Positions 2-34,299 of a DNA stretch of 64,000 nt are shown one piece after another; the stretch's first letter is position 1, and each line of letters begins with the position of its first letter. The DNA is from Candidatus Hydrogenedentota bacterium. Its GTDB lineage: Bacteria > Hydrogenedentota > Hydrogenedentia > Hydrogenedentales > JAGMZX01. The notes under the pieces are model-generated. The model saw only the letters and a program-made list of their open reading frames with translations. It did no database searches and was not told the origin of the DNA. Both the position numbers and the translations under genes were made by a program. Location of the stretch: the NCBI GenBank assembly GCA_029556545.1, contig JAKQEQ010000069.1, positions 1 to 64,000 of the forward strand. The letters run 5' to 3'.

Positions 2-1354
2 ATGCTCGAAGTGCGCCAGCGGCAGTACGTCGGCATGGTCGAAATCGAGATCGAGTTGCTTAATGAGGAGTTCACCAAGAGCGCCCGCCTACTGAAACAA
101 TTGGAGGAACTGGCTCGGGTCATTGAGGGTCAGACCCTCGAGACGGATTATGTCTCCCTGTTGGCCATCGAGACGGAGCAGACCGTCGTCCGCGAGATGC
201 AGTTACGCCTCTACGAACTAATCCTCGAGCGAAACCGCGTGAAACAATCCCTGGGCGCGAGCCACCCGCAGGTGCAGAGCCTGAACGGCCAGGTGGCGGG
301 CGCCTCGGCCGATCTGCGAACGGCCATCGCGAACATCCGCCAGGCCACCACCATGAAGCAAGAGGCCACGCGGGCGCGCCTGAATGAATTGAACGCGGTG
401 AAGAAGGAGTTCGACGCCAAACAGCGCGAGATCGATATCCTCGCGGCGAATTACGAACTGTACGCGCAGCGGTACGAGGAATCGATCATCAGCGAGGAAC
501 TCGCGGAGAAGAACGTATCGAGCATCCGCGACATGTCAAAGGCGACCCTGCCTTCGAACCCGGTGCGACCGAACCGGCTGTTGAACCTTATCGTCGCGAT
601 CATCGGCGGGTTCATCATCGCCTTGGGCCTCGCGTTCTTCTTCGAGTATCTCGACCATGGCCTCAAGACGCCGGAAGACGTCGAGCACTACGTGAAGGTT
701 ACGCCGCTCGCCAGTTTCTTCAATCCGCCCGGGCAGCCGCTTGACGGGCGCGAAGCGGAACGGCTGTCGATCATGCTCGATACGATCACGAGCAAGGCCG
801 GCGAGAGCCAGCTTTACGAGGTGACCAGCGCCGTGTCCCACGAAGGCGCGCCGCAAGTGGCCGCGGCGCTGGCGCATGCCTTCGCGAGCGACGCCGATAA
901 CCGCACGCTCCTGGTGGATTTCGCGGGTGATATTGCCGAAGCGCGACGCGCGCCTCATGGGGTCGTGGATATTCTGCTCGGACAGGTCTCCGTCGAAAGT
1001 GCGCTGGACTCCGAGGAGACCCTTGTCGTCCTCGGGCGCGGATCGCATGGCGAGTACCCCGCGCACCTGTGGGGTTCCGAGCGCATGAAGCAGGTGGTCG
1101 AGGCGCTGCGTGGCCGCTTCAAATACATCGTCTTCCATGCCGGACCGGTGTTGCAGGCCCACGACGCGGTCAAGCTGGCCCGCTACGCCGACGGCGTCCT
1201 GCTCGCCATCAAGGCGGACGCCACGCGCCGGGAAGTGGTGGGGCGCGCCGTGCAAATGCTCAAGGACGGCAACGCCACGGTGCTCGGGGCGGTGCTGACG
1301 GAACGGACACAGACCATTCCAAGAGCCGTCTATCGCCGTTTCCTGCGGGCGTAG
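2..1354 (+). CDS. Polysaccharide chain-length determinant (GumC/Wzc-like), 5'-truncated
   Basis: The gene runs in from the left edge, so the ATG at 2 is probably internal. The visible 450 residues start with a long coiled coil (about 1-180), then a PVRP motif (187-190) and one membrane span (about 193-215). This is the usual end of a Wzz/GumC co-polymerase periplasmic domain. The cytoplasmic part resembles a BY-kinase fold, but the P-loop position (about 275-290, TSAVSHEGAPQ) lacks the GKS/T signature and no tyrosine-rich tail is present. It may therefore be a pseudokinase that sets polymer length in exopolysaccharide export at the inner membrane. A GDGNAT-like segment and an RVYRRFLRA end follow. 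The family call is good; the loss of kinase activity is inferred. Confidence 0.8.
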   Translation: MLEVRQRQYVGMVEIEIELLNEEFTKSARLLKQLEELARVIEGQTLETDYVSLLAIETEQTVVREMQLRLYELILERNRVKQSLGASHPQVQSLNGQVAGASADLRTAIANIRQATTMKQEATRARLNELNAVKKEFDAKQREIDILAANYELYAQRYEESIISEELAEKNVSSIRDMSKATLPSNPVRPNRLLNLIVAIIGGFIIALGLAFFFEYLDHGLKTPEDVEHYVKVTPLASFFNPPGQPLDGREAERLSIMLDTITSKAGESQLYEVTSAVSHEGAPQVAAALAHAFASDADNRTLLVDFAGDIAEARRAPHGVVDILLGQVSVESALDSEETLVVLGRGSHGEYPAHLWGSERMKQVVEALRGRFKYIVFHAGPVLQAHDAVKLARYADGVLLAIKADATRREVVGRAVQMLKDGNATVLGAVLTERTQTIPRAVYRRFLRA

Positions 1355-1528
1355 ACAACGAGTTGTTGAAATATTGGGACGCGGCGTCGTGCGGCGCCGC
1401 GTCTTCGGCAAGGAACGAGGGAGCCACCGGTGTGCGGCGCGGCCTTGCCTGGTCAGGCACGATCCCGCGCACGGAGGCTTCACGTATCGGGAACCGAAGG
1501 CGCGGTCAAATTCGTGAGGAGTGCAGGT

Positions 1529-3958
<2,430 letters not shown>

Positions 3959-8665: not shown

Positions 8666-8801
8666 ACCGCAGTGAGTGCGGTAGGTCACAAGGGCAAGAG
8701 ACGCAAGCATCCCCGCAGTGAGTGCGGTAGGTCGCCTGATACCCCCCGCAGTGAGTGCGGGGATACTTTCCGCTACCCCCCGCAGTGAGTGCGGTAGGTT
8801 T
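8666..8801. repeat. Four palindromic iteron-like repeats
   Basis: The 15-bp palindrome CCGCAGTGAGTGCGG (5-bp arms, GTGAG loop) occurs exactly four times, starting at 8667, 8713, 8746 and 8780 (spacing 46, 33 and 34 bases). Three of the four are followed by TAGGT. The last is followed by a T tract, so it could also work as a terminator for a plus-strand transcript. The array directly follows the 3' end of the winged-helix gene (8814-9314). It may be a replication origin, a binding site for the element's own regulator or a packaging-recognition site. Confidence 0.85.
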
Positions 8802-8813
8802 TTTTCGTGTAGC

Positions 8814-9314
8814 CTACCGTGCCTCATGTCGCATCTTCTCCCGGAATTCGCGCCGCCGCTTCTTGCTACGGTTGATCCGCTGCTTGCGCATCGCGTCGAA
8901 TTTATCGAGGGATCGCCGCTCTTCCGGCGTCGGCGTGTAGGACTCCCATCGTGCGGATGGTCGGTATCGGGTCGCCCCACCGGGCGTATCCGGTTGATCC
9001 TCGCCTCGGACCTCGAAGAAACCGACGCGGAGCCATTGCCGCCAGCAAGCGCGAAAACCATTCTCGGATACCTGCACACTCGTCGCGTTCCAAGTGAACG
9101 AAAACGCCTCGCCTTTTTTCTCCCATGCAGTAGCGTGAAAATATGCAGCGAAGACCTCCGGGAGCAGGGCTTGCGCGGTCTTCGTTAGGACTCGATAGGC
9201 GTCGCTCTTGAGTAGGTCGCGAGAGATCGGATAAGTCAGGTCGCCGGGCCGGTGCAGGAAAACATTGAACGGTGATAGCGTCCGCCGCTGCTTTCGGAAT
9301 CTGTCTTTTCCCAT
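8814..9314 (-). CDS. Winged-helix, replication-initiator-like protein of the element
   Basis: ATG 9314 is chosen because a GGGAGG site lies 5 bases before it. The 166-residue protein has a helical core (RDLLKSDAYRVLTKTAQALL) and a strand-rich wing (FSFTWNATSVQVSENGFRACW), a layout like plasmid/phage replication-initiator or helix-turn-helix proteins. A strongly basic C-terminus (KQRINRSKKRRREFREKMRH) fits DNA binding. Its gene lies directly beside four palindromic repeats, as Rep genes often do beside iterons. No catalytic motif of a relaxase or rolling-circle Rep was seen. The replication role is inferred from context. Confidence 0.5.
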   Translation of the reverse strand: MGKDRFRKQRRTLSPFNVFLHRPGDLTYPISRDLLKSDAYRVLTKTAQALLPEVFAAYFHATAWEKKGEAFSFTWNATSVQVSENGFRACWRQWLRVGFFEVRGEDQPDTPGGATRYRPSARWESYTPTPEERRSLDKFDAMRKQRINRSKKRRREFREKMRHEAR

Positions 9315-30858: not shown

Positions 30859-31872
30859 TTAGTCTTGCTTGATCTTGAGTTCCTTTGTACTTAGACCAAC
30901 TTCCCAGTAATCAATCGGGAAGCCCGCTTTCCGACTTAGAAACTGAAGAAAACCCCTTGAGTCGTCAGTCTCTGGAGCAGGGGAGCAAATAACGCATCGG
31001 GGAAGGCTCGTGCTCTCCGCAAAGTCTCTGTATACATATTCGAGTAGCTGTCCGACGCCTTCCCTGATCGCTTGCACTGCATTTGCGCAAGTCTTTACCT
31101 CGATGTATGCGTGGAATTCAGGATGCGTCACCATCACATCGACACAAGACCTCTCGAGAAAGACATGTTGACCAAATTCTCCTTCCAGCAGTTGGAAGAG
31201 GTGATTCTGGAGACGACGATGAGTAGGGTCATAGCATATCGAGGCCGTCCCTGCACGATGGACACGCTCCACGGGAAGCGGTTTCTGTCGTCCCGATGGC
31301 AATCTTCGAAAGGCCTCTATATCCGCTGATTCCACCTTGTACAGCATGTATCTCGTTCGTTTCCAAACCCTGTCCTCTTCGTCCGCCAGACGGCCGGAGA
31401 CATGGCATTCAGCATCCTCCGGTCGAAAGCGGATGTTGAAGATGCCCGTATTGTAGTCGGAATGTCCAGTCGTGATGCGGCTCGGATTTCCACCGATTGC
31501 ACACACATCGTGGCGCATTTGCTGCAACCAACCCCTCCGCTCATATTCCTCTACCACCCTCTGGCGATCTTCCTCCGTAAGTAACTCGCACTCACGAATC
31601 TCCCCGACGTAGTACCGCTGCCGGTCAGGGGAAATCGCATAAAGTAGAAGGTCTATGACTTGCCCTGACTCAATCTGTCGGGTCCGGTTGAGGGCTTCCA
31701 CAAAACCGTAATGATAACCGTCCAGTTGACGCGAGTAATCGAATAGCCACTCCTCATGTCCGAAGCCCGTCTTACCCACATAGGCATCATTGCCTTCTAA
31801 TTGACGCGCCTCGCCCGTTGGTCGCCGCCAACCTTGTGAATTCCAGCAAAGCCGTGCGAGATAGGACGCCAT
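30859..31872 (-). CDS. Predicted PD-(D/E)XK nuclease-like protein, possible defence gene
   Basis: AGGAGG lies 10 bases before ATG 31872. The 337-residue protein has an N-terminal domain with W..P.GEARQLEG, GFGHEEWLFDY and LDGYHYGFVEALN, and a C-terminal nuclease-like domain: VDVMVTHPEFHAYIEVKTC (Asp, then Glu-x-Lys) and a downstream GQLLEYVY, the layout of the PD-(D/E)XK restriction-endonuclease fold. It lacks a helicase or methyltransferase partner in the window. Base composition is visibly lower in GC than its neighbours, which suggests recent transfer. A modified-DNA-dependent or solitary restriction role is an inference. Confidence 0.6.
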   Translation of the reverse strand: MASYLARLCWNSQGWRRPTGEARQLEGNDAYVGKTGFGHEEWLFDYSRQLDGYHYGFVEALNRTRQIESGQVIDLLLYAISPDRQRYYVGEIRECELLTEEDRQRVVEEYERRGWLQQMRHDVCAIGGNPSRITTGHSDYNTGIFNIRFRPEDAECHVSGRLADEEDRVWKRTRYMLYKVESADIEAFRRLPSGRQKPLPVERVHRAGTASICYDPTHRRLQNHLFQLLEGEFGQHVFLERSCVDVMVTHPEFHAYIEVKTCANAVQAIREGVGQLLEYVYRDFAESTSLPRCVICSPAPETDDSRGFLQFLSRKAGFPIDYWEVGLSTKELKIKQD

Positions 31873-32055
31873 GGCCTGGATACCTCCTGTTTATACTCAC
31901 TGAGTACTCGGGCCTCACCTCGTAACACCGCGGTGCCATGCCGATGCCCCACGTCACGAATACCCTGCACCACAGCCTTGCGTTTGCTTACGCGGCGAGA
32001 AGCATCGATGCGCCGCATCAAAGGATCAAAGAACCAAAGAATCAAATGACCTACA

Positions 32056-34281
32056 TCATCTTCGCGAACGCGAACGCACCGCGAACACCCGGCCGTTGCC
32101 CGAGTAGTCCCGGTCGGCCCAGTCCTCGCCGCCGTTGCGGAAGCCGAAGCGCCACGCCGACGACGAATCGCGCGATTCCGCCCATACCCACCAGCCCGTG
32201 GTATTAAACACGGGGTCCATGTTCCGCCTGCCCACACCCGGCTGATACAGTCCGCGCAACTCCTCCCGGTTAGGCATGCGCCAGCCGCCGCCCGCCATCT
32301 TGCATGAGGCGACCCACTGTTCAGCCTCCTCGTAAGTGGTATCCCGGTCCGGCCCGACCAGCCATTCGAGGCCGGTCTGGGCATCGAAAATCACGCCCTC
32401 CGCGGAAACGGTGAAGCGTGTTTTCTTATCCGCTGCCAGCGGCTTTTCCTCCAATGCCAACTGCTCTCCGTTGCCCGGCGCTACGGTCTGCGCCTGCTCC
32501 GAACGCGAACGCACCGCGAATACCCGGTGGTAGCGCAAGCCGTTCCGGTAGTCCCAGTCTTCGTTGCCGTTGTTGAAGAGGAAGTACCACGCCGACGACG
32601 GATCGCGCGATTCCGCCCATACCCACCATCCCTCGGTCGTGAATGCAGGGTCCATGTTCCGCCTGCCCACACCCGGCTGATACAGTCCGCGCAACTCCTT
32701 CCGGTTAGGCATGCGCCAGCCGCCGCCCGCCACCTTGCATGAGGCAACCCACTGTTCAGCCTGGTTGTAATCGGTATCCTGGTCCGGCCCGACCAGCCAT
32801 TCAAGGTCGGTCTGGGAATCAGCTATAACGCCCTCCGCGGAAACGGTGAAGCGTGTCTTCTTATCCGCTGCCAGCGGCCTTTCCTCCAATGCCAACTGCT
32901 CTCCGTTGCCCGGCACTACGGTCTGCGCCTGCTTCGGACGCGAACGCACCGCGAACACCCGGTTGTCGCTCGAGTCGTCCCGGTTGATCCAGTACTCGTC
33001 ACCGTTGTGGAAGCGGAAGTCACTCGCCGACGACGAATCGCACGGTTCCGCCCATACCCACCAGCCCCCGGTCTTGAACACAGGGTCCATGTTCCGCATG
33101 CCCGCACCCGGCTGATATAACCCACGCAATTCCTGCAGGTTAGGCATGCGCCAGCCGCCGCCCCCCACCTTGCATGAGGCAACCCACTGTTCAGCCTGGT
33201 CGTAATCGGTGTCCTGGTCCGGCCCGACCAGCCATTCAAGGCCGGTCTCGGAATCGAAAATCACGCCCTCTGCGGAAACGGTGAAGCGTGTCCTGCCGGG
33301 CGCGACGGCCATCGGCGGGGCTTCCACGCCGGGCGGGGGCGGGCCGGGTTTCGTGGCACCTGGAACCGGCGCGGGCTTCTCGAAGCCGAGCATGAGAGGG
33401 TTCGGCTGGGGCTTGAGGCTTTCGCGGAGGGCGGCGGCCATGGCGCGGCCATCGAGATAGCGATCGACGGGCCGCTTGCTCAGGGCCTTGAGGATGACGC
33501 GGCTGAGCGCCTCCGGGACGTTGACGTTGAGTTCGTGAGGCGGCGCGGGGTTCGCATTGATGACATGATACATGACCGTGGTCAGGACCTCGCCCGTGAA
33601 AGGCTTCTCCCGCGTGAGCAGTTCGTACAGCATGACGGCGACGGAGAAGAGGTCGGATCGCCCATCGACCTCCTGTCCCATGCACTGTTCGGGACTCATG
33701 TAAAACGGCGTGCCGATGAGGGCGCCCTCCTGCGTCAGCGTCGAGTCGGACATGTGGGCGATCCCGAAATCCGCCACCTTAATCGGTCCGCCCGGCGGCG
33801 TCATGATATTGGCCGGCTTGATGTCGCGATGAATGACACCCCGGTCATGCGCGCTGGCTAGGGCCTCGCAGATGGCCGCGCCCATCTCGGCGACGGTCTC
33901 GGGGTCTACGTGGCGCTTTTCCTCGATGACTTTGCGCAGATCGCCCCCTTCGAGAAACTCCATGACAATGTAACCGATGCCATTCGCTTCGTCAGCGTCG
34001 TGGATGATGATAATGTTGGGATGGTTCAGCGCGCCTGCGGCGCGGGCCTCGCGCAGAAACCGCTTCATCATTTCATCAGCGTTCGGGGATGACTCGATCT
34101 TGTCACGGCGGACGGTCTTGATCGCGACGCGGCGCTCGATGTTCGGGTCGAGTCCCTCATAGACGACGCCCATCTCGCCTCTGCCAAGTTCGCGCACGAT
34201 CCGGTAGCGCCCCAGGTGGTCCGGCATGTTCGTGGCGGTCACGCGCGTGGTTTTCTCCCCTTGATTACGATCACGGATCAT
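32056..34281 (-). CDS. Ser/Thr protein kinase with three tandem DUF1566 (C-type-lectin-like) domains
   Basis: ATG 34281 is preceded by AGGTG. Residues about 10-285 form a Hanks-type kinase with GRGEMGVVYEG, the VAIK Lys, HRDIKPAN, DFGIAH and SPEQ. After a Pro-rich linker (about 290-325), three near-identical units of about 120 residues follow (33293-32929, 32853-32494, 32418-32056), each TRFTVSAEGVI...EWLVGP...GGGWRMPN...WVWAE...RVFAVRSR. These match DUF1566/Lcl domains of the C-type-lectin fold. Differences concentrate in a 22-codon segment before RVFAVRSR, where 12 of 13 variable codons have the form NNC. No membrane span is visible, so the lectin-like domains probably bind an intracellular ligand. 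Confidence 0.88.
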   Translation of the reverse strand: MIRDRNQGEKTTRVTATNMPDHLGRYRIVRELGRGEMGVVYEGLDPNIERRVAIKTVRRDKIESSPNADEMMKRFLREARAAGALNHPNIIIIHDADEANGIGYIVMEFLEGGDLRKVIEEKRHVDPETVAEMGAAICEALASAHDRGVIHRDIKPANIMTPPGGPIKVADFGIAHMSDSTLTQEGALIGTPFYMSPEQCMGQEVDGRSDLFSVAVMLYELLTREKPFTGEVLTTVMYHVINANPAPPHELNVNVPEALSRVILKALSKRPVDRYLDGRAMAAALRESLKPQPNPLMLGFEKPAPVPGATKPGPPPPGVEAPPMAVAPGRTRFTVSAEGVIFDSETGLEWLVGPDQDTDYDQAEQWVASCKVGGGGWRMPNLQELRGLYQPGAGMRNMDPVFKTGGWWVWAEPCDSSSASDFRFHNGDEYWINRDDSSDNRVFAVRSRPKQAQTVVPGNGEQLALEERPLAADKKTRFTVSAEGVIADSQTDLEWLVGPDQDTDYNQAEQWVASCKVAGGGWRMPNRKELRGLYQPGVGRRNMDPAFTTEGWWVWAESRDPSSAWYFLFNNGNEDWDYRNGLRYHRVFAVRSRSEQAQTVAPGNGEQLALEEKPLAADKKTRFTVSAEGVIFDAQTGLEWLVGPDRDTTYEEAEQWVASCKMAGGGWRMPNREELRGLYQPGVGRRNMDPVFNTTGWWVWAESRDSSSAWRFGFRNGGEDWADRDYSGNGRVFAVRSRSRR
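32086..33035 (-). repeat. Three hypervariable C-terminal segments of the DUF1566 repeats (DGR-like)
   Basis: Aligned segments lie at 33035-32955, 32605-32524 and 32170-32089. At variable positions the three codons are, for example, cgc/tac/gac, ggc/ctc/cgc, cgc/aac/cac, gcc/gac/atc and ggc/cac/aac. Third bases do not change at these sites, while silent changes occur at neighbouring constant codons (gag/gaa, ggc/ggt). Confidence 0.7.
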
Positions 34282-34299
34282 GTTAGCACACCTGCGCAA

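Follow-up and report, generated by a model that had tools for sequence, protein, structure and literature searches.

The window studied here is a stretch of 64,000 nucleotides from a MAG of 6.1 Mb (195 contigs, 96% complete); the relatives within its order that bear a name belong to Candidatus Hydrogenedentota. It encodes a Ser/Thr protein kinase which is followed by three lectin-like DUF1566 (Lcl_C) units. The variable codons of these units are almost certainly of diversity-generating retroelement (DGR) origin, and the gene as a whole is likely to represent a DGR-diversified three-lectin array on a kinase that has become an orphaned relic target. That a DGR acts on the kinase gene in this organism today seems rather unlikely. 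A DGR works through a reverse transcriptase (RT) that misreads adenines as it copies an AAC-rich template; the resulting cDNA is substituted for the corresponding 3' part of the target. AAC codons are thus turned into NNC codons, while the other bases remain fixed.

The coordinates of the gene and its parts are summarized in Table 1. The three DUF1566 units that the original prediction placed behind a Ser/Thr kinase were recovered, together with the Pkinase match, as units of 117 codons each which align without gaps. The likelier start of the protein is the ATG of MPDHLGRY near position 34227, because the paralogue and the relatives align from MPDHLGRY. Identity among the units is 76-79%, and with a second family gene on contig C57 of the same genome it is 70%; the linkers between units are nearly identical. 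Units 1 and 2 are internal and unit 3 is C-terminal; by inspection the 3' end typical of DGR targets is found at unit 3, and this stretch is a candidate for the homing-initiation side. The kinase gene is closely followed, on its own strand, by an ORF of 337 aa (window 30859-31872, minus strand). Pfam and PADLOC gave no match for it; its C-terminal part looks nuclease-like by eye and it is a possible operon partner of the kinase gene.

Table 1. Features of the kinase-Lcl_C gene (positions in the window).
Feature	Position	Strand	Details and basis
Kinase-Lcl_C gene	32056..34299	-	747 aa as listed, TTG start; ORF
Ser/Thr protein kinase domain	33457..34206	-	PF00069 E 3e-48, residues 32-281
Lcl_C unit 1	32938..33288	-	alignment of units
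Lcl_C unit 2	32503..32853	-	alignment of units
Lcl_C unit 3, C-terminal	32068..32418	-	alignment; modelled as C-type-lectin fold
Variable codons, unit 1 (unit codons 89-108)	32962..33021	-	template homology over 32935-33039
Variable codons, unit 2	32527..32586	-	template homology over 32500-32604
Variable codons, unit 3	32092..32151	-	template homology over 32064-32169; no private non-A change
3' end common to the family's DGR target genes (CGCGAAGATGATGTAGGTCATTTGATTC...)	32015..32067	-	after unit 3 only

By inspection the kinase part contains the glycine loop, VAIK, HRDIKP and DFG motifs. Its closest relative is encoded on contig C100 of the same genome and is 84-85% identical. Between these two paralogues dN is 0.08 and dS 0.76 (dN/dS about 0.1), so that on the sequence comparison the kinase domain is under purifying selection with its catalytic motifs intact. 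The C100 kinase has homologues in the genomes G001, G018 and G051. What the window protein lacks in comparison with kinases of the C100 type is, again by inspection, a hydrophobic segment and additional C-terminal sequence. For that reason we infer that the gene arose from a duplicated membrane kinase whose C-terminal half was swapped for the lectin array. No other fusion of a kinase with Lcl_C on the same ORF was found among the other related loci; the longer Lcl_C proteins tested carry mostly caspase-like domains, and also PKD, SH3 and CarboxypepD_reg. PADLOC also matched the kinase (PD-T4-6 and others), but these matches extend over no more than the kinase domain and were not accepted as evidence for a role in defence.

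For unit 3 a structural model built with 46 relatives reached a pLDDT of 96. The best PDB match is the C-terminal domain of Legionella Lcl, and C-type lectins come next. The unit is accordingly modelled as a ligand-binding fold of the C-type-lectin type.

Variation between the three units is concentrated in unit codons 89-108, where 13 codons change the amino acid. The number of 13 differing codons originally given holds for this segment; the full 22-codon stretch to which it referred contains 14, including codon 88 (AGT/TGG/TGG). A recount confirmed that 12 of the 13 codons are NNC in all three copies, the thirteenth being TCG/TTG/TCG. Of the 21 codons that change the amino acid elsewhere in the units, only 3 are NNC (Fisher 9e-6) and 5 show third-base variation. 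Silent third-base changes are seen at the constant codons 95, 97 and 110 and are absent from the 12 variable ones, in agreement with the original prediction; outside codons 89-108 they are common. Between units dN is 0.39-0.48 and dS 0.09-0.23 in the variable segment; for the remaining codons the values are 0.08-0.09 and 0.17-0.22, respectively.

A scan of genome contigs for the Lcl_C family yielded 76 loci, mostly from Desulfobulbaceae and other Deltaproteobacteria. At two of them a complete DGR lies beside the Lcl_C gene, namely L068 (Desulfobulbaceae UBA11700) and L101 (Desulfoarculaceae KA05). Both show the order Lcl_C target, bAvd-type gene (assigned by PF22296, which was tested in L068), template, and DGR-type RT with IGNLTSQ. 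Over the aligned 80 bases all mismatches between template and target fall on template adenines (13/13 and 15/15, respectively). The L068 template reads DSSSAWNFNFNNGNENWNNRNNSNNNRVFGVRSRPRR and encodes SSSAWNFNFNNGNENWNNRNNSNNN; it corresponds to the ancestor deduced from the window units when each NNC is taken back to AAC. With this template, which comes from another phylum than the window genome, as reference, 13, 14 and 20 of 30 adenines are mismatched in units 1, 2 and 3, compared with 8, 9 and 5 of 69 other bases, so that even unit 3 keeps five non-A differences. The units differ among themselves at 19 of 30 template adenines versus 7 of 69 other bases (p 1e-7, L068 template as reference). 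The targets of these two elements belong to the Lcl_C family of the window units (60-66% identical) and have the same kind of 3' end. The elements differ from the window gene in being complete, in having a single-unit target without kinase, and in an RT with a MutS_I-like C-terminus.

The RTs in question (L068 11050-12585 and L101 11080-12624, both plus strand) are about 512 aa long, and their C-terminal part matches MutS domain I with E 7e-8 and 2e-3, respectively. At L106 of Desulfobacterales (981-1603, plus strand) the Lcl_C target is followed by a stop-bearing fragment of a DGR-like RT, apparently another decayed element.

We also looked for the element in the window's own genome, where the original prediction had proposed to search for a DGR RT and a template repeat. 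Neither is in the assembly: in spite of its 96% completeness there is no RVT_1 match of any kind, and an IUPAC degenerate pattern as well as blastn with the window DNA and the foreign template returned the variable regions only. A weak match on contig C137 was put down to chance; the long ORF around it is unrelated and, by inspection, helicase-like. The second family gene, on contig C57, encodes a lipoprotein-like protein of 231 aa whose variable codons are again NNC; the constant codons of its segment keep the same bases, though the matched DNA is only 76% identical. About 0.8 kb downstream of this target, on the same strand, lies the start of a bAvd-like protein, 45 residues long and 64% identical to the bAvd of the intact L068/L101-type element. 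It is cut off there, and the sequence that follows overlaps, in our reading, with an opposite-strand ORF for a methionine sulfoxide reductase-like protein; neither a template nor an RT follows the remnant on this contig. This truncated bAvd is the only Avd in the assembly; PF22296 matches on C140 and C192 fall below the cut-off, lie on other contigs and were rejected as the missing Avd. In the related genome G018 a homologous target is likewise followed by just the first residues of a bAvd-like protein (MTHYEHLPIY). The orphan target and truncated bAvd of C57 point to a DGR of the Lcl_C/bAvd type which was once present and has decayed. Together with the A-restricted codon pattern and the family template and RT found elsewhere, they support the DGR reading. 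The notion that the kinase sensor "is or was" diversified is thus upheld for the past, given the family's DGR in other genomes and its template, which agrees with the window segments at almost every non-A position; for the present it finds no support in an assembly that lacks RT and template and holds a decayed remnant only. The same genome encodes, at G000:C161:7046-7870 (L001, L002), a protein of 900 aa in which two divergent Lcl_C domains occur together with long EG-rich repeats.

The units do not share the same recent history. Outside the variable region 14, 11 and 13 changes in 249 bases are private to units 1, 2 and 3, respectively. At the 75 non-A sites of the region the corresponding numbers are 3, 4 and 0, where about 4 would be expected for unit 3 (these are small numbers). 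This is suggestive of units 1 and 2 having drifted at non-A sites at about the rate of their flanks, which unit 3 did not. As its non-A sites show no drift, unit 3 is probably the copy rewritten last, a conclusion resting on few sites. Rewriting of the C-terminal copy, with the other units produced by duplication, fits this drift and the fact that unit 3 alone has the DGR-target 3' end. A three-CLec target of Thiohalocapsa PB-PSB1 likewise showed, at several sites, more frequent variation in its third variable region than in the two before it (PMC10907252).

The apparently fresh rewriting of unit 3 would also be expected if the gene were still an active remote target, with RT and template present in the living organism and missing from the assembly. 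Repeat-rich DGR loci may assemble or bin badly in a MAG of this kind, complete DGRs exist in a same-genus genome and in G051, though with another target type, and remote kinase targets have been reported from cyanobacteria (PMC7517822). We nevertheless hold this to be improbable in view of an assembly without any RT, the broken DGR remnant of C57 with its counterpart in G018, and the drift of units 1 and 2. There is also a minor chance that the variable codons were acquired ready-made. In that case units copied from DGR targets would have been multiplied by duplication or recombination, and no rewriting in place would ever have occurred in the kinase gene itself. Unit 3 has the 3' flank found in DGR target genes, the linkers are nearly identical, and C57 is a possible kind of donor. 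On the other hand, the identities among the units and to C57 mark the units as a separate group, and divergence is far greater at their variable codons than in the flanks, which argues for rewriting between or after the duplications, be it here or in a lost donor. Ongoing diversification in trans, by an RT and template that are phage-borne, carried by a mobile element or unassembled, is a slim prospect; if true, a single kinase would receive input from three ligand sensors on the same polypeptide, each rewritten separately. Positive selection on the lectin loop without any retroelement, with NNC produced by the codon bias of a GC-rich genome (natural DUF1566 variation, in the original wording), has hardly any chance of being right: third-base C is indeed commonest in the kinase part (47%), but pure codon bias is contradicted by the uneven distribution of NNC within the same units, by third-base C at 84% in the segment's codon columns of near homologues versus 18% in other variable columns, and by the template of complete DGRs, which has A at exactly these positions.

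In the reading we favour, that of an orphaned DGR target, a soluble Ser/Thr kinase would carry a three-lectin array that was diversified by a DGR of the DUF1566/bAvd/RT type. The resident DGR would then have decayed with the loss of template and RT, leaving the kinase as an orphan target whose last rewriting took place in unit 3. By analogy the lectin array may act as the kinase's ligand sensor, either controlling its activity or selecting its substrates, and present three different binding surfaces on one chain. DGR lectins have been viewed as sensors on signalling or conflict proteins (PMC7517822, PMC10907252), and the kinase and caspase-like partners of Lcl_C agree with that view.

Targets with a kinase-CLec architecture, with DUF1566 or with three tandem CLec domains have all been described before. 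What is new is the combination of a kinase with three DUF1566 units, in Hydrogenedentota and orphaned from its element. From cyanobacterial DGRs, Ser/Thr kinase-CLec variable proteins and remote targets have been reported (PMC7517822). Like the window gene these have a Ser/Thr kinase followed by a DGR-type CLec, often distant from the RT; they differ in having usually one CLec, an RT in the genome and another phylum of origin, and DUF1566 is not named in that paper. DGR 4/5 of Thiohalocapsa PB-PSB1 has three tandem CLec domains per target, and kinase domains also occur among the targets (PMC10907252); its triple-CLec targets contain a vWA domain instead of a kinase, and the DGR is active. DUF1566 is described as the Pfam domain found most often in DGR targets (PMC6642488, PMC4159848), and several variable regions within one ORF were found in 31 of 271 multi-VR DGRs (PMC6642488). 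In contrast to the window gene, the DUF1566 targets of these two studies lie beside their own RT, and PMC6642488 mentions no kinase fusion. A large survey described remote targets as beyond its own reach (PMC8144416). Our search for DGRs in Hydrogenedentota found nothing in the papers that it covered. On the orphan-target reading Hydrogenedentota would join the lineages with DGR lectins on signalling kinases, and two designs known separately, the kinase target and the triple tandem lectin, would be united in one gene. It would also be a readable case of the fate of a DGR: with RT and template no longer in the assembly, target copies persist, duplicate and keep the kinase intact. Orphan targets missed by RT-centred surveys could be found from the codon signature alone.

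Related elements of another target type occur in the same-genus genome G001 and in the genome G051, which have complete DGRs with FGE-sulfatase-type templates. These were rejected as trans drivers for lack of a match between their templates and the Lcl_C segments. The locus on G001:C154 (L031, L056) consists of an RT with IGNLTSQ, a PF22296 gene, the template RVVRGGSWNNNPRNCRSANRNNDTPDNRNTNNGLRLLR and FGE-sulfatase-like targets, two segments of which mismatch the template at A only (19/19 and 16/16). Two more FGE-type DGRs are found on G051:C268 and C695 (L133, L134) of Hydrogenedentota, with 20/22 and 18/18 mismatches at A. At L052 (G051:C129, 3116-5524, plus strand) a protein of 803 aa contains three tandem Lcl_C units of the window family between a CarboxypepD_reg-like N-terminus and a TonB_2-like C-terminus, and has no kinase. 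A virus record of 18.2 kb (IMGVR_UViG_3300025317_000053; L137/L138), in which RVT_1 gave no match, encodes three Lcl_C genes of the window family at 885-1697, 2971-3393 and 8754-9221 (plus strand) and shows that the target family travels on phages. The segment of one of these genes is almost equal to the unmutated template (SAWNFNFNNGSENWDDRDHSNYGDRVFAVR).
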